Shown here: piece after piece, positions 36,223 to 46,772 of the stretch
How positions within the stretch are numbered: the first letter of the stretch is position 1
How the letters are laid out: each line of letters begins with the position of its first letter
Source: Ignavibacteriales bacterium CG18_big_fil_WC_8_21_14_2_50_31_20
GTDB lineage: Bacteria > Bacteroidota > Ignavibacteria > Ignavibacteriales > Melioribacteraceae
Direction of reading: 5' to 3'
Assembly: GCA_002786785.1 (NCBI GenBank)
Contig: PCUD01000142.1
Location: 655-47,426, forward strand
DNA length: 46,772 bases
The notes under the pieces: model-generated
What the model was told of the DNA's origin: nothing
The model's input: the letters and a program-made list of their open reading frames with translations, nothing else
The model's database searches: none
Program-made: the position numbers and the translations under genes

Positions 36223-37446
36223 TTATTGTTTTTTATCTTTTTTTAAAATAATTTGAAAAACAGTGCCTTCTCCTAAAATAGTACTTTTCACAAAAATTTT
36301 CCCTTTATGGTAATCTTCAATAATTCTTTTTACAAGTGATAGTCCAAGCCCCCAACCTCTATTTTTTGTGCTATATCCAGGTCTAAAAACATCTTTTCTG
36401 TTTTTTAGGTCTATTCCTTTACCATTATCAGAAACATCGATAATTATATTATTCTCTTCTTCTTTTATTTCAAAAGTAATTAATCCATTTTTTGACTCAA
36501 TAGCATCTAAAGCATTTTTTATCAAATTTTCAATAACCCATTCAAAAAGGGATCTGTTTAAAGGAAGTGATACATTAGCAGAATTTATAATTCTAATTTT
36601 AGTTTTTTTACTCGAGATTGGTAGACGCCTATTAAAATAATCAATTACAGACTGAATAACTTCGGTAATTTCAGTTGGAACTAGTTTTGGTTTTGAGCCA
36701 ATTTTTGAAAAACGATCGGCTATTTTATTTAATCTTTGTAAATCGTTACTTATTTCAGCGCTTATATCTTCAACTTTATCTGGATTAGATTTATTGATTT
36801 TTAATATTTCATTCCATCCCATGAGGCTTGAAATTGGAGTACCTAATTGATGAGCCGTTTCCTTTGCCAAGCCAACCCAAATATTACTTTGTTCATTCTT
36901 TTTTAAGTAACTAAAACTAAAGTAAGCAATAATAATAAACATCATCGCAAAAATAATTTGCAAATAAGGGTAATATCTAAGTTGGGTTATTAATACAGAA
37001 TTTCCATAATAAATTTTATTTAGCACTAAACTATCTTGGCTGTATACAAAAATAGGATTATTGAATTTACTAAATTCTTCAATTTTGGTTTGAATAAACT
37101 GAATTTTTTGATCTTCTGTAAGAAGGGAATCAATTCCTAAATTTCTAATTCCACCAGTCATTCCATCTAGCGAAACATTATTTTTAGAATCTGTTAAGAT
37201 TAATGGGAAATCAATTCGTTTAATAACATCGAGTAAAAATGTAAAATCTTTATCTGAAGCATCTAATTTAGCAACTTGTTGCAAACTTGAAGCGAACAAT
37301 TCTGCAACCTGCTTTTCCCTAACTTCAATTTGTGATATTAAAGCTTGAGTATAAATAAAGGTGGCTAAAGCAATAATTGTTGCAAAAACTAAAAGTATTA
37401 TTTTAATTTGAATTGAGCCAGGTCCACCAGACATTTTGCTATTCAT
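36223..37446 (-). CDS. Membrane-bound sensor histidine kinase
   Basis: 407 aa. Two transmembrane helices (residues about 15-36 and 163-181) flank an extracytoplasmic sensor of about 125 residues with no recognisable fold. The H-box is KETAHQLGTP with phospho-acceptor H199; the catalytic domain shows the N-box NLIKNALDAI, DNGKGI and GWGLGLSLVKRI. The short interval between membrane and H-box leaves no room for a full HAMP or PAS domain. No response regulator is adjacent, so this is an orphan kinase. It follows purA by about 40 bases. Confidence 0.9.
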   Translation of the reverse strand: MNSKMSGGPGSIQIKIILLVFATIIALATFIYTQALISQIEVREKQVAELFASSLQQVAKLDASDKDFTFLLDVIKRIDFPLILTDSKNNVSLDGMTGGIRNLGIDSLLTEDQKIQFIQTKIEEFSKFNNPIFVYSQDSLVLNKIYYGNSVLITQLRYYPYLQIIFAMMFIIIAYFSFSYLKKNEQSNIWVGLAKETAHQLGTPISSLMGWNEILKINKSNPDKVEDISAEISNDLQRLNKIADRFSKIGSKPKLVPTEITEVIQSVIDYFNRRLPISSKKTKIRIINSANVSLPLNRSLFEWVIENLIKNALDAIESKNGLITFEIKEEENNIIIDVSDNGKGIDLKNRKDVFRPGYSTKNRGWGLGLSLVKRIIEDYHKGKIFVKSTILGEGTVFQIILKKDKKQ

Positions 37447-37485: not shown

Positions 37486-38763
<1,278 letters not shown>

Positions 38764-38785: not shown

Positions 38786-39133
38786 TTAATCATTAGCTTT
38801 AAAACTATTAGCAGCTTCATCAACTGAATTAAAGTTTTCAAAAATAGTAATTAGTTTTGTAATAACTAATAAGCTGTTTATTTTATCGGTAGCGTTAGCA
38901 AGTTTTAAAACTCCACCTTTATTTTTTACAGAAGTATATCCACTTATTAACATACCCAAACCGGTGCTATTCATAAATTTAACACTTCCCAAATCTATTA
39001 TTATATTGGATTTTTTTTCATCTAAAAGACTACCTAAAAGATCGTGAAATTCTTGGGCTTCTGGACCACCCATAACGTTGCCTTTTAATGTTATTACAAC
39101 TGCACCATATTTTTCGCTTGATTTAATACGCAT
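38786..39133 (-). CDS. STAS domain anti-sigma factor antagonist
   Basis: A 115-residue single STAS-domain protein of the SpoIIAA/RsbV type. These bind an RsbW-like kinase when unphosphorylated and release its sigma partner. The phosphorylation loop reads MNSTGLGM, so S56 (or T57) stands where SpoIIAA S58 is phosphorylated. Transcription is leftward toward purA, divergent from the ECF sigma gene, with a good TTG-N21-TATATTTG promoter and AAGGTG ribosome-binding site. With the plus-strand phosphatase and kinase genes next door it is probably a second input to that switch. Confidence 0.88.
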   Translation of the reverse strand: MRIKSSEKYGAVVITLKGNVMGGPEAQEFHDLLGSLLDEKKSNIIIDLGSVKFMNSTGLGMLISGYTSVKNKGGVLKLANATDKINSLLVITKLITIFENFNSVDEAANSFKAND

Positions 39134-39190
39134 ATTAGCACCTTATAATTATTTTTTGAAATTATGTTGATAAACTTAGTAAAAAGATAA

Positions 39191-39222
39191 CAAATATAAT
39201 TAGATTATTTTGTAACTTACAA
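39191..39222 (-). promoter_or_regulatory. Bacteroidetes-type promoter of the minus-strand STAS gene
   Basis: On the minus strand, TTG (39222-39220), a 21-bp spacer, then TATATTTG (39198-39191), an exact TAnnTTTG -7 element. The leader would be about 50 nt. Confidence 0.45.
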
Positions 39223-39301
39223 AAAAGAGTTTGTAAAAAAAGGTTAAAAAATTGTTTTTTTTTATAGTTAACAAATTTAATATTGGAACATAGTTTGTCT
39301 T

Positions 39302-39904
39302 ATGTCGTCTAAAATTCCCGTAGTAAATAGTAGCTTGTCAGATAATGATTTAGAAATTGAGGATCAAGATTTTATTCTGATTAGAGAGTATATAAATGGT
39401 AACGAAAAAGCCTTTGAACGATTAATGATTCAGCATAAGGATAAAGTTCGTAACCTTATTTTTCTTACATTAAATGATTCTGAATTTGTGGATGATATTT
39501 CGCAAGATGTTTTTATCAGCGTTTATCACAAATTGTCTGAATTTAGATTTGAGTCGAAATTTACTACTTGGCTCTATAGAATTACTGTCAATAAATGTCG
39601 TGATTATTTGAGGAAGAAAAGAGTAAGAAGCATTTTTGTCCCAATTGCAGATGCCCACGAAAATGTTTTTTCAACAGGAATTCATGAAGACATTGATATA
39701 CCTGGTTTAGTTAGAAAAGCGATTAATAGATTGCCCGAAAAATTAAAAATTCCTCTTGTTTATAGAGATATTGATGGATTAAGTTATAACGAAATTGCGG
39801 AAAAATTAGATTGCGAAGTTGGAACTATAAAATCAAGAATTTTTAGAGCTCGTGAAAGTTTAAAAGCAATGCTTGAACCTTACCAAAAAGAAATGAATAG
39901 ATAA
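39302..39904 (+). CDS. ECF-type RNA polymerase sigma factor
   Basis: 200 aa with sigma-70 region 2 (residues about 38-105; DISQDVFISVYHKLSEFR, FTTWLYRITVNKCRDYLR) and region 4 (about 138-190; LPEKLKIPLVYRDIDGLSYNEIAEKL, then GTIKSRIFRAR helix-turn-helix). There is no region 1.1 or 3, so it is of the ECF group. A short acidic N-terminal extension of about 25 residues precedes region 2. The downstream neighbour is not a zinc-finger anti-sigma factor, as would be usual; instead partner-switching genes follow. Upstream, TAGTTTG (39291-39297) lies five bases before the ATG, so the message may be nearly leaderless. Confidence 0.93.
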   Translation: MSSKIPVVNSSLSDNDLEIEDQDFILIREYINGNEKAFERLMIQHKDKVRNLIFLTLNDSEFVDDISQDVFISVYHKLSEFRFESKFTTWLYRITVNKCRDYLRKKRVRSIFVPIADAHENVFSTGIHEDIDIPGLVRKAINRLPEKLKIPLVYRDIDGLSYNEIAEKLDCEVGTIKSRIFRARESLKAMLEPYQKEMNR

Positions 39905-39954
39905 TTTTTATTTGCAGTGTTTAACAATATTTTGCAATTTTAGAAAAAAATAAA

Positions 39955-41076
39955 ATGAATTTACCCTTAAAATTACGCCAAAATATTTTTGCAGTTTCAA
40001 TTGTTATTTTAACTGTAATTCTACTTGTTATTTTTAAAGTACAACAATCGGATGAATTAAATTTCAAAAATGGTGATGTTATTGACCAATTCTATTCCGA
40101 GACAATTAAGCCTATTTTCACATCTGAATCATTTGATAAAAAAGAAGTTATAAATTTTGCCTTAAAAGGTGATTTAGTTCTTGATGAAAAGGCAAAAAAA
40201 GTGCTTCAACTAAGAAGCGATTTTAATGGCAAAGAAGTTGTAGGGATAAAGAATGAAAAATTATTATCAGTGAATAATAATTATGATAAAGTTGTAAACG
40301 GTCTTGAACTTAGTGAAAAACGAAAAATTGAATTAGATTCAATTTTAGAAAATTATTCCCAAATTTTATCACAATCAATTTACAAGGATGAAAATAATTC
40401 TTTTGCAATTGACCCAAATATTGGATTGGTGAGATTATCGTTGAATAAAGACCTTTCAAATTTTGTTTCTCAAAGTAAAAACCATGAAAATATGAATTTA
40501 ACGGTTCTTAATGAATTATTAAAAGGCAAACAGAAAAATCAAAGCAATGGCTATTTGGTATTTACACCCGATACAGTTTTTTATAGTGAATATGAAAAAG
40601 TTGAAAAGATAAATGAAAATATTACGAAAAATAAAAAAATAATTGAACTCAAAAAGTTGAATTTAGAAAATGAAAAAGCATCAAATCTTAGTAAATCAAA
40701 TCCAAATATTTATATCGATTCAAACATAGTGAATATTACTTTAGATAATTTATTAAACATTGACAGTTTTAAAGAACTCAATTTTTTTAATAAAACTATT
40801 GATAGCACTAATAAAAACATTAAACTTTCGTTTGAATTTTCTGACGATACGACCAACAACATATTCTTAAAATTTAGTTATTTGGATAGTGCAAATAATA
40901 AAATTAACTACGAAATGAATTCAGATGATATTGGGAATTCTGTTTCAAATTCCATGAAAATCTTTAGTGGCAAAAATCTTAACGAATGGATAGAATACGG
41001 AATTAAAATGGATTCAATTTCAAGAAAAATTGAACAAACAAAAGCTTCAAATGAAATTAAAAAGGACGGCTTTTGA
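39955..41076 (+). CDS. Single-pass membrane-anchored protein of unknown function
   Basis: 373 aa. A short basic N-terminus, one transmembrane helix (residues about 12-28), then a long, polar, Asn/Lys/Ser-rich extracytoplasmic part. Residues about 117-140 (LSEKRKIELDSILENYSQI) and 220-245 look helical or coiled coil. I find no enzymatic motif, zinc site or known fold. With fewer than a dozen residues inside the cell it cannot carry a standard anti-sigma domain, although it sits directly after the sigma gene where an anti-sigma factor is often found. Its stop overlaps the next start, so it is translated together with the phosphatase. It may sense an envelope signal. Confidence 0.75.
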   Translation: MNLPLKLRQNIFAVSIVILTVILLVIFKVQQSDELNFKNGDVIDQFYSETIKPIFTSESFDKKEVINFALKGDLVLDEKAKKVLQLRSDFNGKEVVGIKNEKLLSVNNNYDKVVNGLELSEKRKIELDSILENYSQILSQSIYKDENNSFAIDPNIGLVRLSLNKDLSNFVSQSKNHENMNLTVLNELLKGKQKNQSNGYLVFTPDTVFYSEYEKVEKINENITKNKKIIELKKLNLENEKASNLSKSNPNIYIDSNIVNITLDNLLNIDSFKELNFFNKTIDSTNKNIKLSFEFSDDTTNNIFLKFSYLDSANNKINYEMNSDDIGNSVSNSMKIFSGKNLNEWIEYGIKMDSISRKIEQTKASNEIKKDGF

Positions 41077-43160
41077 AATCTCTAATAAGCAAAATTTTAG
41101 ATGGGAATAAAAAAAACAAATTAGAAAAATTTCTTTTTTCAATAGTTATTTTAGTACTTTTTAAAATTTTCTTTCCTTTGATTAATGCAACAATTTTAGT
41201 TCTTATTAACGAAATTTTAATTTTCAGTTCACTAAGTTTAGCATTTCTTTATTTTGTAGAAATAACCTCTACTAAAAGCGATAACCCAATTTCTTTAACA
41301 TTAAATATTGGAGTTTTAAGTGCAGTTTTATTCTTTATAATATCACTTTCATCTGCAATATTTGATACAATTGAAAACATTGAGGATGTGAATGGTGTTA
41401 TTTACACATTTTCTTCAGTTATAATAACACAATTATTTATACTTTTTGCTGTTTATATTCTATCCTCTTTTCAAACGTTTTATTCAATGCGACAAAAAAG
41501 AGATAAAGAAAACTATTTTAACTACCTTCTAATAGCAATTCTTTTGTCATCTTTTTCTGGAACAATTAGTGGAATTTATCCTGAGCTTCAATTTGTTGAA
41601 AAAACATTCTTTTTTATCGCCATCGTTCTGGTGGTTTTTAACTCTTTTCGTGTTTCTTGGATTGCTTTTTTAACCAAAAAACAAAAAATAGTAATCCTTT
41701 TAACTTCAATTATTGTTTCTACATTGTTCGGGCTCAATTTTGCAATGTTTTTTGAAAATAATATAATTGAGCAAATTGTATCCAATTTTTCACCAGGCGT
41801 TAGAGTTTCTTATAGATTAATTATGCTTTACGGAAATATCTACTTTGGAATTATTTTCTTTACCACACTTTTCCATTTACCAACAGCAGGAGCTTTTGAC
41901 CAAAAATCGGAAGAAATAACTTCGCTGATTGATTTAAGCAAGCTAATGACTCAAGTCCTTGACTTTAAAGAACTTGCTGATAGTTTAACAGATGCAACAA
42001 ATAAAGTATGTAATTCTGATTCAGCCTGGTTAGTAACAATTGAAAATAACGAAAGGAGTTTAGTTTCTGTTAATAATATTGGCTATTTAGAAGCCCAGAA
42101 TATTTCGGATGAGTTACTTTCCGAATTTAATGGTCAGTTGACTGATATTATATCAATGAATAAAAAACTTATTAAAATTAAACTTAAAGGCGATGTTCGC
42201 ACATACGTTTTTCAAGCAATTATTGTTGCCCCATTAAAAGTGCATGGAAAAACTAATGGATATTTATTTGCTGCAAAACGTCAAAAATATAAATTTGAGC
42301 AAGATGAAAAAAAAGCTGTTGGTGCATTTGCCGATTATGCTGCCATCGCTTTGGAAAATGCTAAATTATTCAAAGAATCTGTTGAAAAAGAGAGAATGGA
42401 AAATGAGCTTGAAGTAGCTCGAAATATTCAATCAAGAATTTTACCAAGCGAAAATCCTAAAAATGACAGATTAGAAGTTGATGCTTTGTTTGTTCCAGCC
42501 TTTGAAGTTGGCGGCGATTATTATGATTATTTCCAGTTAGGGAATAATAAATTAGGTTTTGTTATTGCCGATGTATCAGGCAAAGGTGTAGTTGCATCTT
42601 ATGTTATGGCAGAAGTTAAAGGAATTTTTGAATCACTTTCTCGAGTAATTCACAATCCAAAAAAACTTTTAATTGAGACTAACGACATCTTAAAACGTAG
42701 TTTAAGTAAAAATAGTTTTGTTACAGCTCTTTATGGAATAATTGATATTGAAAACGGAAAACTAAACTTTGCTCGTGCTGGACACATGCCTCTGTTAATT
42801 TGTTCCGAAGGGAAAATTAAGGAATATTTACCAAAAGGAATTGGTTTGGGATTAGATTTTGGAACAATATTTAGTTCCAATATAGATAATATGGAAATTG
42901 AGTTAAATAATAACGATATTTTAATGCTATATACTGATGGTGTTACCGAATCACGAAATTCTGCAAATGAGGAATTTGGATTTGATAGACTGATTCATGT
43001 TTTTGAATCAAATTATAACGGTGAGTTATCTAATATTACAAGAAGTATTTTTGAAGAAGTTTCAATTTTTTCAAAAGAAGAACAGCAACATGATGATATT
43101 ACATTAGTACTTTTTAAGTGGAAAAATTTAAAAAAATCATTGGAGAAGCTTAATGGCTGA
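41073..43160 (+). CDS. Membrane GAF-SpoIIE (PP2C) serine phosphatase
   Basis: 695 aa. About eight transmembrane helices (residues about 18-270), then a GAF domain (about 290-440), a short helical linker (MENELEVARNIQSRIL) and a SpoIIE/PP2C phosphatase (about 465-690). Metal-binding aspartates are present: D482 in GGDYYD, D500 in ADVSGKG, YTDGVTE, and D674/D675 in QHDDIT. Such RsbU-like enzymes dephosphorylate STAS antagonists. The start is TTG, supported by AAGGA eight bases upstream and by overlap with the previous stop. The stop overlaps the STAS gene by eight bases, which suggests that this STAS protein is its substrate. Confidence 0.9.
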   Translation: MKSLISKILDGNKKNKLEKFLFSIVILVLFKIFFPLINATILVLINEILIFSSLSLAFLYFVEITSTKSDNPISLTLNIGVLSAVLFFIISLSSAIFDTIENIEDVNGVIYTFSSVIITQLFILFAVYILSSFQTFYSMRQKRDKENYFNYLLIAILLSSFSGTISGIYPELQFVEKTFFFIAIVLVVFNSFRVSWIAFLTKKQKIVILLTSIIVSTLFGLNFAMFFENNIIEQIVSNFSPGVRVSYRLIMLYGNIYFGIIFFTTLFHLPTAGAFDQKSEEITSLIDLSKLMTQVLDFKELADSLTDATNKVCNSDSAWLVTIENNERSLVSVNNIGYLEAQNISDELLSEFNGQLTDIISMNKKLIKIKLKGDVRTYVFQAIIVAPLKVHGKTNGYLFAAKRQKYKFEQDEKKAVGAFADYAAIALENAKLFKESVEKERMENELEVARNIQSRILPSENPKNDRLEVDALFVPAFEVGGDYYDYFQLGNNKLGFVIADVSGKGVVASYVMAEVKGIFESLSRVIHNPKKLLIETNDILKRSLSKNSFVTALYGIIDIENGKLNFARAGHMPLLICSEGKIKEYLPKGIGLGLDFGTIFSSNIDNMEIELNNNDILMLYTDGVTESRNSANEEFGFDRLIHVFESNYNGELSNITRSIFEEVSIFSKEEQQHDDITLVLFKWKNLKKSLEKLNG

Positions 43161-43497
43161 TTTTAATGTTTCATCAAGAATTGATGGAGACGTAAATCTA
43201 ATAGATGTAAAAGGATATTTGGACGCACATACTGCACCAGATCTCGAAAATGAATTCAATAAGTTGATTGAAAGAAAGCGATTCAAAGTAGTTGTCAATT
43301 TCAGTGAACTGAACTATATAAGCAGTGCTGGTCTTGGGGTTTTTATGGCTTATGTAGAAACAATGCGTGAGCAGAGCGGTGACATTAAATTTTCGAATTT
43401 AAAAGACGATGTTTATAGTATTTTCGACTTGCTCGGTTTTCCAGTTTTGTACGAGTTTTATAAAGAAGAAAAAGAAGCTATTCAAAAGTTTAGATAA
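43153..43497 (+). CDS. STAS domain anti-sigma factor antagonist
   Basis: 114-residue STAS protein. The loop NYISSAGLGVF places S58 at the phosphorylation position of SpoIIAA/RsbV (DSSGLG in the models). It lies between the membrane phosphatase (overlapping) and the RsbW-like kinase (about 10 bases away), the standard order of a partner switch: the kinase inactivates it by phosphorylation and the phosphatases reactivate it. Confidence 0.92.
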   Translation: MADFNVSSRIDGDVNLIDVKGYLDAHTAPDLENEFNKLIERKRFKVVVNFSELNYISSAGLGVFMAYVETMREQSGDIKFSNLKDDVYSIFDLLGFPVLYEFYKEEKEAIQKFR

Positions 43498-43506
43498 TTC
43501 AAAATA

Positions 43507-43938
43507 GTGAAACCAATGTTGAACATATTAAAAAATGAACTTACACTTGAAAGTTCTACAGATCATCTTTCTGAAGTTAGAAACTTTGTTGAGGTCAATG
43601 GAATAAAAGTGGGTTTAAATAAGCAAACAATAGCTCATATTTCTTTAGCTGTTGATGAAGCTTGTACAAATATTATAAAACATGCTTATAGCAACGATTT
43701 AACTAAAAAAATTAAAATAAAGATTAAAACCTCAGAAAATAAATTTACTGTTATAATTACCGACAGCGGAAAGCATTTTGACCCAAATAAAGTGCCTGAG
43801 CCAAATATTGAAAAAATTCAAAAAATGAAAAAAGGCGGAGGTTTGGGTATGTTCTTAATGAAAAAACTAATGGATGAGGTGCATTATAATCCCAAAGCAA
43901 ATGGTAACGAACTAATTTTAATAAAAAATTATAATTAG
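43507..43938 (+). CDS. RsbW/SpoIIAB-like anti-sigma factor serine kinase (HATPase)
   Basis: 143 aa made of one GHKL ATPase domain. N-box VDEACTNIIKHAY (E51, N55), DSGKHFDP in the G1 position and a glycine-rich GGGLGMFLMKKLMDEV. There is no H-box, so it is not a two-component kinase. The start is GTG at 43507, with ATG at 43516 as alternative. By family it should phosphorylate STAS proteins and bind a sigma factor or another partner; the ECF sigma at 39302 is the obvious candidate in this locus, but that is inference. Stop and next start are four bases apart. Confidence 0.9.
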   Translation: MKPMLNILKNELTLESSTDHLSEVRNFVEVNGIKVGLNKQTIAHISLAVDEACTNIIKHAYSNDLTKKIKIKIKTSENKFTVIITDSGKHFDPNKVPEPNIEKIQKMKKGGGLGMFLMKKLMDEVHYNPKANGNELILIKNYN

Positions 43939-43942
43939 TGTT

Positions 43943-45622
43943 ATGGAAAATGCAATAAATAAAAGTACCTTACGAAACTTATCTGCTCTTGTCGATTTTG
44001 GAAACCTAATAAATTCCTCACTTGATACAAAATTTATATTAAATAATTTGCTCCTAACATGTTTTGGAAAATTTCATACAACTAAAGGACTTTTTGCAAC
44101 ATGTTACAACAACAAATTACAATTTTCAATTAGTAAAGGTTTGGGTGGAAATTACAAAGAGGAATTTCCAGAAACCGAAATTGATGATTATCTAAACTCT
44201 ACAAATCTTAAAGAATATTTAATTAAGAATAAATTAGTTCACTCACAAGAAGTTTATTCGGCTAATAAATTAATTGGAGTGTTGTTCCTTGGTGAACGTT
44301 TAAGTGGTGATAAATATTTTGATGAAGATATAAAATTTTTGCAGACTTTTTTAAATATTACAGCTACGGCTTTAGAAAATTCGATAAGTATTACACAATT
44401 AAAAGAAGTTAACAGAAATCTTGATAACAAAGTGCACCAACTAAGTTCACTTTTTGATTTAAGTAAAGAGTTTGGGGGAATTCTTGAAATTCCGTTGGTC
44501 AGCAAGCTTTTAGGTTTTTCAATTATTGGCCAATTGTTAGTAACAAAATATGCTATTATAATTTTCCGTGATAACAAGCATGAAATTATTGAGTCAAGAT
44601 TTGATATTGAAGTTTTAGAACAAATTATTACTTTATTAAAAGCTGAAGATATTACTAAACCCGTTATTTGTAATTCAAAATTAAATGCTTCACAACACCT
44701 TCTTTTTTCGATGGGAATTGAACTAATTGTACCCATGCAAATTAAACAAAAGACAAAAGGCTTAATTTTATTAGGAAGGCGAAACACTGGTGAAAGTTTT
44801 ACAAAATCCGATATCGAATTTGTATCATCTGTTGGCGGATTGGCAATAATCTCAATTGAAAATAGTATTTTGTTCAAAGAAACGTTGGAAAAACAAAAGC
44901 TTGAAAAAGATTTAGAAATTGCAAAAAAAATACAAAGAAATCTTCTACCAAATAAACTTCCTAAAATGAATAATTTTGAAATAGCAGCTTTTAATAATGC
45001 CGCAAAGCAAGTTGGTGGAGATTACTACGATGCAATTAAATTAGCCGATGGAAGAATATTAATTGCAATTGCCGATGTTTCTGGAAAGGGAGTTCAAGCC
45101 GCATTATTAATGGCTAATCTTCAAGCTTTTTTGCAGGCAATTAGCAAACAAAACAAAGAACTTATAGAAGCGTCTAACTTGTTAAATGATTTAGTTAGCG
45201 AAAATACATCTGATGGAAGATTTATTACATTCTTTTGGGGAATTTTAAATGATGAAAATCTTCAATTTGAAAGCGTTAATATGGGTCATAATCCTCCGTT
45301 AATTATCCGTAATGGAGAAATAATAAAATTAAGAATAGGTGGAATGTTAATGGGAGTAATGCCAACAATAACTCCTTACAAAAAGGAAACTACTCAATTA
45401 GTTAAGAATGATTTATTAATTTTGTTTACTGACGGAATAACGGAAGCAATGGATGAAAAACAAAATGAGTTTTCAGATGAAAAATTAGAGGAACTTTCAC
45501 TTAAATTAAAAAGCAATTCAGCCGAAAATTCACTTAATAAAATTTTGAATGAAGTTAATAAACATACCAAAGGTACTGAGCAATCAGACGATATTACGTG
45601 TATTGTAATAAAAGTAAAGTGA
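43943..45622 (+). CDS. Soluble two-GAF SpoIIE (PP2C) serine phosphatase
   Basis: 559 aa, with no transmembrane helix. GAF-like domain 1 (residues about 12-145), GAF domain 2 (about 165-310), then a SpoIIE/PP2C domain (about 340-558) with D360 in GGDYYD, D378 in ADVSGKG, GHNPP, FTDGITEA and D549/D550 in QSDDIT. It would be a cytosolic counterpart to the membrane phosphatase, giving the same switch a second signal input. It follows the kinase gene by four bases. Confidence 0.9.
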   Translation: MENAINKSTLRNLSALVDFGNLINSSLDTKFILNNLLLTCFGKFHTTKGLFATCYNNKLQFSISKGLGGNYKEEFPETEIDDYLNSTNLKEYLIKNKLVHSQEVYSANKLIGVLFLGERLSGDKYFDEDIKFLQTFLNITATALENSISITQLKEVNRNLDNKVHQLSSLFDLSKEFGGILEIPLVSKLLGFSIIGQLLVTKYAIIIFRDNKHEIIESRFDIEVLEQIITLLKAEDITKPVICNSKLNASQHLLFSMGIELIVPMQIKQKTKGLILLGRRNTGESFTKSDIEFVSSVGGLAIISIENSILFKETLEKQKLEKDLEIAKKIQRNLLPNKLPKMNNFEIAAFNNAAKQVGGDYYDAIKLADGRILIAIADVSGKGVQAALLMANLQAFLQAISKQNKELIEASNLLNDLVSENTSDGRFITFFWGILNDENLQFESVNMGHNPPLIIRNGEIIKLRIGGMLMGVMPTITPYKKETTQLVKNDLLILFTDGITEAMDEKQNEFSDEKLEELSLKLKSNSAENSLNKILNEVNKHTKGTEQSDDITCIVIKVK

Positions 45623-45628
45623 GAAATT

Positions 45629-46772
45629 TTGAATAGATTAGAAAACATATTTCCAAAATATAGAAGCAAAATTATTGCTCCTCTTGTTTTATTACTTTCT
45701 GTTCTAGTTCTAATTCAATTCTATTTTATTTTTGAAATTACTCCTCAACCTAACGATGAATGTTTGTGGATTGAGCAAGAGGTTTCAAAAGATAGCATTG
45801 GCTATTTTTTTGATGAAGTTAAATTTAATGGTGTAACTTGGAATGCCGGAATTAGAGACGGCGACCAACTATTAAAAATAAGTAATAAACCAATTCGTAC
45901 ACTTTCTGAAGCAAGTTATATTTTAAATTCTATGTCTATAGCTGATTCAGCTATTTACACTGTTTCGCGAGATGGTGAAATTTTTGAAACTAAAGTTGAA
46001 GTTAAAAAACTTATTCAATTTGGTGGGCTTTCATTTGCCTTGCTTGGTCTAATTTGGTTAATTGTTGGATTTATTGTTATTAAATCAAAAGAAAATGGTG
46101 AAACTCATATTATCTTTTTTGGAATTGGAATTGCTTTTGTCTTTTTTGCATCTTTTAATTTATTAATTTCCTCAAATATTAAAAATCCTTTGTTTAATAT
46201 TCCCATTCTCATCCAAATTGTTGATCATCTTTGGACAATTGGAATTTTATTTTTACCATTTCTAATTGTAAAATTTTTCTGGATTTTTCCTAACAAAATT
46301 GAAAGATATAACAAAGTATGGCTTAATAAAGCACTATATGCCATTCCATCTTTCATGTTCGCAATTCTTGTTTATGTTAAATATAAATTTGTTTATCCCG
46401 GGGCTATTAATTCAATATATTTTTATTCTATTATTTCTGCGACTTCAATTATTTTGGTTTTCGTTGCTGCAGTAATCGGGTTCATTTCTCTGTTTAGTAA
46501 TTATTTGAGAATTGAAAACAAAAAAGATAGAAAACCAATATTTCTTATTTTAGTTGCTTATGCAATAGGAATTTTAGCAGCTATTTATTCTTTTATTTTA
46601 GTAAAAACTGGCTCACCGGCAATGATGTACAATCAACCAGAATTTTTTATGCCAATTATTCTAGTTGCTTTGCTTCCAATTGCGTTTGCTTATTCAATTT
46701 TCAAATACTCTTTATTAGATGTTTCAGATGTTGTTAAAACTACTTTACTTTATGGATTAGCAACGGTTAGCA
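45629..46772 (+). CDS. PDZ-domain membrane sensor, 3' truncated by window end
   Basis: Open frame from TTG 45629, six bases after the preceding stop, running off the window (381 codons visible). One N-terminal transmembrane helix (residues about 16-36), then a periplasmic PDZ-like domain of about 100 residues (NAGIRDGDQLLKISNKPI), then seven or so hydrophobic helices. The last visible part, KYSLLDVSDVVK, resembles the membrane-proximal segment that precedes a GAF plus PP2C or histidine kinase catalytic region in multi-TM sensors. The output domain lies beyond the window. The start could also be a later codon, but no better one is seen. Confidence 0.7.
   Translation, partial: MNRLENIFPKYRSKIIAPLVLLLSVLVLIQFYFIFEITPQPNDECLWIEQEVSKDSIGYFFDEVKFNGVTWNAGIRDGDQLLKISNKPIRTLSEASYILNSMSIADSAIYTVSRDGEIFETKVEVKKLIQFGGLSFALLGLIWLIVGFIVIKSKENGETHIIFFGIGIAFVFFASFNLLISSNIKNPLFNIPILIQIVDHLWTIGILFLPFLIVKFFWIFPNKIERYNKVWLNKALYAIPSFMFAILVYVKYKFVYPGAINSIYFYSIISATSIILVFVAAVIGFISLFSNYLRIENKKDRKPIFLILVAYAIGILAAIYSFILVKTGSPAMMYNQPEFFMPIILVALLPIAFAYSIFKYSLLDVSDVVKTTLLYGLATVS

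Follow-up and report, generated by a model that had tools for sequence, protein, structure and literature searches.

Which protein holds the extracytoplasmic function (ECF) sigma factor that is encoded beside an RsbW-type partner switch in Ignavibacteriales bacterium CG18_big_fil_WC_8_21_14_2_50_31_20? The window analysed here is a stretch of 46,772 nucleotides (assembly GCA_002786785.1, contig PCUD01000142.1, positions 655 to 47,426 of the forward strand). At 38786-46772 it carries an island in which the sigma gene, termed SIG, is followed on the plus strand by U373, SpoE1, STAS2, RSBW, SpoE2 and a PDZ gene, with STAS1 divergent from SIG. A sequence-only reading had noted two STAS proteins, an RsbW-like ATPase, SpoIIE phosphatases and the ECF sigma factor, and had proposed that the kinase sequesters the sigma factor or an unknown partner. 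Coordinates and Pfam scores place all of these genes where it had put them, and its observation was confirmed with corrections; its interpretation is partly supported. It left out the key piece, U373, and the history of a lost cytoplasmic anti-sigma domain (ASD). The explanation that we favour, at a probability of about 0.47, is that two older units merged, that the ASD was lost once and that RSBW took over the ECF sigma factor.

The anti-sigma gene next to the sigma factor

The families were compared in a sample of 164 genomes of one order: 79 of f1, 80 of its sister family f2 and 5 of f25, another sister family. f1 was taken as Melioribacteraceae, the labels of the closest relatives being mostly Melioribacteraceae, Melioribacter, Ignavibacteria or Bacteroidetes. 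The genome of the window, G000, comprises 3.81 Mb and is 99% complete. SIG (39302..39904, plus strand, 200 residues as called) is an RpoE-like sigma factor with the Pfam sigma regions r2 and r4_2 and no r3. It scored 138 bits against the RpoE model, short of the equivalog cut-off, and was matched at E ≤ 1e-35 in 154 of the 164 genomes.

The gene after SIG, called U and represented in the window by U373, differs between the families. In the other families of the class it encodes a protein with one transmembrane (TM) segment. A hydropathy script placed the start of this segment between residues 82 and 125 in all 21 loci, so that there is room for an ASD in front of it. When the amino termini were scanned against Pfam, that of locus L053 exceeded the zf-HC2 cut-off and five others matched zf-HC2 or RseA_N below the cut-off. 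In these families and in f2 the partner of the sigma factor is a predicted membrane anti-sigma factor with an amino terminus resembling class I domains.

The ASD was followed with a model, A1, that spans the ASD, the TM segment and the start of the sensor and was built from six proteins, five of f2 and one of a different family. In f2 it was matched in 75 of 80 genomes, at full length in 73 and in two pieces at contig ends in G203 and G209; the remaining five have no ASD match and no SIG match either. Every f1 match listed, from 61 of 79 genomes, lacked the ASD, as did 5 of 5 in f25. The other 18 f1 genomes had no A1 match among the matches listed, or none at all. In f1 and f25 no stop-free match begins before column 64, the TM segment lying near column 86, and matches reaching further left read through stop codons. 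U373 itself (39955..41076, plus strand, 373 residues, one amino-terminal TM segment) is matched only from column 70 of 176. Neither U373 nor the two f1 U proteins scanned gave a significant Pfam match.

Since the ASD is present in f2 and in the outgroup families, and since a purA and SpoE2 tree of 67 loci splits f1 and f25 from f2, the simplest history by parsimony is a single loss of the domain in the ancestor of Melioribacteraceae and f25. U373 is, judged from its alignment, the remnant of a membrane anti-sigma factor without the cytoplasmic anti-sigma domain. Its predicted fold is of low confidence (pLDDT 66) and gave no PDB match at E ≤ 0.001. The extracytoplasmic residues from about 60 to 172 were predicted with fair to high confidence and likewise had no significant PDB match.

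In part of f1 the stump is gone as well. Of 72 informative f1 loci, 12 have SIG but no U. Nine of these genomes carry SIG and SpoE2 on a single contig, and there SpoE1 comes next after SIG, at a gap of 1-29 bp in eight and of 151 bp in one; the other three (G229, G249 and G285) lie on shorter contigs. The 67-locus tree, which holds a subset of the loci, puts these losses at three or more separate positions. Locus L125, although scored as lacking U, encodes a 382-residue one-TM protein at that place and is left out of the losses. The f2 genomes with SIG have kept a domain-bearing U in 73 of 73 cases. The difference (12 of 77 f1 and f25 loci against 0 of 73 f2 genomes) gave a Fisher p of 0.0003, uncorrected for relatedness and with loci compared to genomes, hence on differing bases. 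The stump is apparently dispensable in f1.

The promoter, the switch and their coupling

An ECF-type promoter, GGAAC-N16-CGTCTAA, lies at 39285..39312 on the plus strand and is probably the site of autoregulation. It is the sole match of the window to GGAACN{15,18}CGTC, for which 0.04 matches are expected. The strict form GGAACN{16,17}CGTCTA was found once in the whole of G000, upstream of SIG, and a reversed control pattern gave 4 matches. Ahead of the sigma gene, scanned over 400 bp upstream and up to 90 bp inside the called gene, GGAAC-N14..18-CGTC was present in 49/63 f1, 21/23 f2, 5/5 f25 and 18/21 other-family loci; the spacer was 16 in 81 of the 94 matches and 17 in 12. Most of the 14 f1 loci without a match have a CGTCT -10 element with a variant -35 element, as read by eye. 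The script left seven motif matches without a SIG assignment. By reading, six of these fall within sigma genes called too long, the next gene being 544-632 bp away, and the seventh is a remnant promoter in L259. Before each of the other island genes the same pattern occurred in 0 or 1 of 67-90 shorter stretches (300 or 150 bp), and before stand-alone copies of SpoE1 in 1 of 37, there without the CGTCTAA ending.

Because the promoter precedes the sigma gene throughout the class, the sigma factor probably transcribes itself and the switch. Its single strict occurrence in G000 means that SIG may serve its own cluster alone, or targets of a looser pattern. The called ATG of SIG overlaps the -10 element in the window, as the shared ATG does in L080-L083. 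An in-frame TTG follows at 39335, and translation may in truth begin further downstream than called. In most of the loci inspected outside the genus of the window the start codon falls a few bases past the -10 element, which suggests leaderless transcripts.

From U373 onward, adjacent genes overlap or lie at most 10 bp apart (U373 and SpoE1 overlap by 4 bp, and STAS2 overlaps SpoE1), and the cluster would be transcribed as an operon. SpoE1 (41073..43160) combines several TM segments, a GAF domain below the cut-off and a SpoIIE phosphatase (149.8 bits). STAS2 (43153..43497; Pfam STAS 55.5 bits, over the cut-off; loop ISSAGLG) is an anti-sigma antagonist by its profile. RSBW (43507..43938) scored 108.9 bits with HATPase_c_2, matched RsbW and SpoIIAB in a structure search and is a serine kinase of this type and the candidate anti-sigma factor. 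Its residues E51, N55, D86, G88, G111, G112 and G114 are each more than 93% conserved among 84 aligned relatives; we take the roles of these ATP-binding motifs to be those of the family. SpoE2 (43943..45622, 559 residues) joins a GAF-containing sensor to a SpoIIE phosphatase (151.4 bits). Both phosphatases of the sequence-only reading are thus present at about 150 bits each, but the second has one Pfam GAF region (approximately residues 239-307) and not the two ascribed to it. The multi-TM PDZ sensor that it had described is there too (45629..46772, plus strand; PDZ_6 below the cut-off), but the gene is cut by the contig end. Its intact relative, L080:16319-18883, has a weak PDZ match and ends in GAF and SpoIIE (136 bits), and the island is therefore counted with three SpoIIE phosphatases.

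STAS1 (38786..39133, minus strand, 115 residues) resembles an anti-sigma antagonist (Pfam STAS 54.5 bits, over the cut-off; loop MNSTGLG). The serine of its NS[ST]GLG loop is found in 83 of 83 aligned relatives and that of the STAS2 loop in 82 of 82; both are presumably the phosphorylated residues. Next to STAS1 lie purA (37486-38754) and a sensor-kinase-like gene, HK (36223-37446; weak HisKA match, and HATPase). Across the order this neighbourhood recurs at many loci, and STAS1 may go with either these two genes or the switch.

The distance between SIG and SpoE2 was measured where both lie on one contig. They are 2-5.5 kb apart on one strand in 60/60 f1, 5/5 f25 and 47/50 f2 genomes, a count that leaves out 4 of 154 SIG and 2 of 148 SpoE2 genomes without a position among the matches listed. 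Because this spacing is kept across the three families, their neighbourhood is not due to chance. Of the informative loci, 8 of 58 in f2 are uncoupled, against 0 of 77 ASD-less ones of f1 and f25 (Fisher p = 0.0009, relatedness uncorrected). The 77 consist of 60 f1 and 5 f25 one-contig pairs and of 12 f1 loci, G281 among them, where a contig that ends early still reaches from SIG or its tail into U and/or SpoE1. The 58 include the coupled G155, G216 and G222, the last with only U and SpoE1 labelled. The count omits 22 f2 and 7 f1 genomes (G226, G227, G243, G255, G272, G278 and G287; contig ends or both genes missing). In a smaller set of loci, based on one-contig pairs, 7 of 54 f2 loci are uncoupled against 0 of 65 ASD-less ones.

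The eight uncoupled f2 loci are of three kinds: three have the switch without an intact sigma gene (G208, G210 and G212), two have the sigma pair but not the switch beside it, and three have insertions. In G192 and G151 the SIG-U pair stands beside STAS1 and the switch does not adjoin it; no SpoE2 match at E ≤ 1e-100 was found in G192, a genome that is 99% complete. Other genes are inserted between U and SpoE1 in G211, G214 and G215. A short gap in six f2 genomes fits a loss of SpoE1, of which G135 (L057) alone was checked directly. In G208 the promoter is kept, U is missing and the sigma gene is a remnant in two frames with only about the first 100 residues recognisable. The broken sigma remnant at L259 4961-5676, with a surviving promoter, comes from an f2 genome that lost the anti-sigma gene. 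The decay of the sigma gene in G208 alongside the loss of U is expected if an unrestrained self-activating sigma factor is harmful.

Outside the order, 21 of 21 fetched loci with SIG relatives, some on short contigs, have no switch genes nearby. Sigma orthologues without the switch, the finding that the sequence-only reading had set against its circuit, do occur, and its own refuting condition applies by half. The co-occurrence that it expected holds in Melioribacteraceae, where the switch accompanies the sigma factor in 72 of 72 informative loci; beyond the order it does not, the switch is also found alone, and in three f2 genomes the sigma gene is lost or broken while the switch persists. 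By gene order, sigma factor and switch are separable where the ASD is present, and no separation was seen where it is missing.

Candidates for the inhibitor of the sigma factor

We propose that, in the Ignavibacteriales, an autoregulated ECF sigma factor with a classical membrane anti-sigma factor became the neighbour of a stand-alone four-gene switch. The anti-sigma gene would have lost its ASD in the common ancestor of Melioribacteraceae and f25, leaving a membrane stump that was at times deleted. Because a self-activating sigma factor without the ASD needs another brake and RSBW is the only anti-sigma-like protein of the cluster, the RsbW-like kinase is the most likely present holder of the sigma factor. 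RSBW would be drawn away from it by unphosphorylated STAS2 and perhaps by STAS1 as well. STAS2 would be dephosphorylated by one of the three SpoIIE phosphatases, each answering its own sensor (TM/GAF, GAF and PDZ/TM/GAF), and the freed sigma factor would transcribe its own cluster, sigma gene and switch together. The inhibition of an ECF sigma factor would then have passed from a class I membrane anti-sigma factor to an RsbW-family serine kinase, with the sister family that has both systems as the intermediate and the deletion of the anti-sigma gene as the end state. We hold this replacement tentatively, at not quite an even chance. Since SIG has no region 3, it would require a new binding mode of RsbW.

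Several observations weigh against a takeover by RSBW. SpoIIAB binds region 3 of sigma-F, the very region that SIG lacks. The strict promoter occurs only once in G000, which weakens the case for the sigma factor as the output of the switch. The f2 genomes G208, G210 and G212 (99%, 98% and 78% complete) have kept the switch without an intact sigma gene. In ASD-less genomes (79 branches) RSBW was the top partner of SIG in rate covariation (0.26; purA -0.06, HK 0.07), but the signal is weak: SIG and SpoE2 gave 0.24, about equal, and purA and HK, a presumably unrelated pair, gave 0.41. In f2 the value for SIG and RSBW was -0.13, from 17 branches, which are too few. The SIG positions given as ASD contacts in Table 2 of PMC7406223 showed no significant extra relaxation in ASD-less genomes (p = 0.35). 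Three relaxed residues of the SIG in the window (43, 44 and 47) were considered as support and rejected, as a post-hoc pick of this kind is special pleading.

The wide occurrence of the switch also weighs against a takeover. Among 149 genomes of the class RSBW was matched at E ≤ 1e-15 in 115 and SIG at E ≤ 1e-30 in 64, and SpoE1-STAS2-RSBW-SpoE2 stands as a cluster of its own in other families, also in genomes without a close copy of SIG. RSBW was among the called open reading frames (ORFs) in 28 of 40 stand-alone regions fetched; the other 12 have no RsbW ORF, partly as longer overlapping frames won, and each has at least SpoE1 labelled. In one of the 28, L195, a remote ECF gene (55 bits) lies downstream at a distance of a few genes; no SIG-like gene was seen in the other 27. 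The four-gene switch is thus older than its union with the sigma factor. By eye, a gene for a MATE-like transporter often lies upstream of the stand-alone switch (L199, L200, L203, L208 and others), and some have a leucyl-tRNA-synthetase-like gene downstream.

G000 contains five stand-alone RsbW-like ATPases (ORFs of 137-153 residues) and ten SpoIIE domains, and four of these ATPases lie outside the island on C108, C12, C121 and C151 (L152-L155), which also counts against the takeover. In these short loci no sigma gene was read beside the ATPase; C12 also has a STAS gene and four SpoIIE domains. Other findings in G000 favour the takeover. Region 3 was matched in two sigma factors of G000 only, both RpoD-like, and with these matches judged by eye no group-3 sigma factor of the sigma-B/F type was found. 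As the sequence-only reading had stated, no zinc-finger anti-sigma factor is encoded next to SIG; the sole zf-HC2 match of G000 (E ≤ 0.01, below the cut-off) directly follows another ECF gene. Neither an orphan zf-HC2 anti-sigma factor nor a second match to the ASD model was found in G000, other kinds of anti-sigma factor not having been searched. An anti-sigma factor of another class, encoded elsewhere in G000, may hold the sigma factor instead.

In the main rival explanation, the switch would still act on an older target. The sigma factor would then be an amplifier that puts the switch under a self-activating promoter and would itself be limited by a weak promoter, by degradation or by an unlinked anti-sigma factor. 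The class-wide stand-alone switches, the three f2 genomes that kept the switch after the sigma gene was lost or broken and the strict promoter at its own cluster alone all agree with this, and it could well be true, although we think it somewhat doubtful: it leaves the coupling of the sigma factor in 77 of 77 informative ASD-less loci unexplained, and likewise the shut-off of a self-activating sigma factor in a genome without an orphan zf-HC2 or a second ASD match. A role of U373 itself, the stump restraining or localising the sigma factor by way of its TM helix or the short tail in the cytoplasm, is improbable. U does follow the sigma gene directly in most f1 and in 5 of 5 f25 loci, with a still recognisable extracytoplasmic part, but the TM hydropathy window in the f1 loci inspected starts from residue 10-28, which leaves too few residues in front of it for the four-helix class I domain described in PMC7406223, and the 12 U-less f1 loci have an intact sigma gene. 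That the genes are mere neighbours without a functional link, their order kept because the purA, HK and STAS1 stretch is syntenic, has the smallest probability of all. The conservation of purA and HK beside the island speaks for it, but the cluster is intact where the left flank differs (L058 and L108), sigma gene and SpoE1 lie 1-29 bp apart in eight of the nine U-less genomes with a measured gap and 151 bp apart in the ninth, and a sigma-type promoter stands ahead of the cluster. A sigma factor held by RSBW would account for the coupling and for the missing brake, and it remains the explanation that we favour.

Comparison with known systems

Group-3 sigma factors are the best-known partners of RsbW-type kinases (PMC4598750). 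In PMC7406223, RsbW homologues served as the negative control for an interaction with ECF sigma factors, and in PMC3999984 the RbaW of Rhodobacter had no identified sigma partner. For partner switching of ECF sigma factors, EcfG is the system named in PMC8999054 and PMC8103513. No report of an RsbW-ECF pair was found in the literature searched, which did not extend to most subscription papers or to the Casas-Pastor 2021 ECF classification. The pairing of an ECF sigma factor that has an ASD-less partner with an RsbW switch in one cluster is not described in the literature examined.

The alphaproteobacterial EcfG-NepR-PhyR system shares with the island the theme of partner switching on an ECF sigma factor, but its protein families differ; neither NepR nor PhyR appeared in a Pfam scan of the island, a search that was not extended to the whole genome. 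The btr locus of Bordetella is closer in content, as it unites an ECF sigma factor (BtrS) and an RsbU/V/W-like set. There BtrA is the proposed anti-sigma factor, its interaction with BtrS being disputed, and secretion requires BtrU, BtrV and BtrW alike, with no negative regulator among them (PMC7498569).

With the Bacillus RsbU/V/W-sigmaB and SpoIIE/AA/AB-sigmaF switches the island has in common an RsbW-family kinase, STAS proteins with a conserved serine and SpoIIE phosphatases in one cluster. It differs in that the adjacent sigma factor is an ECF sigma factor without region 3, no sigmaB/F-type sigma factor having been found in G000, in its three phosphatases and in the occurrence of the switch elsewhere without SIG. 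With the RpoE-RseA type, an ECF sigma factor and a class I membrane anti-sigma factor with an ASDI domain, it shares the RpoE-like sigma factor, the GGAAC-type promoter and the one-TM gene downstream. This arrangement is complete in f2, whereas in Melioribacteraceae the anti-sigma domain is missing and the partner gene is at times deleted. The loci can be arranged in a series that leads from an ECF/anti-sigma pair to the pair with the switch and on to an ECF sigma factor with the switch but without the ASD. With the sister families as matched controls, this series makes it testable how a cell swaps the inhibitor of a self-activating sigma factor while keeping it under control.

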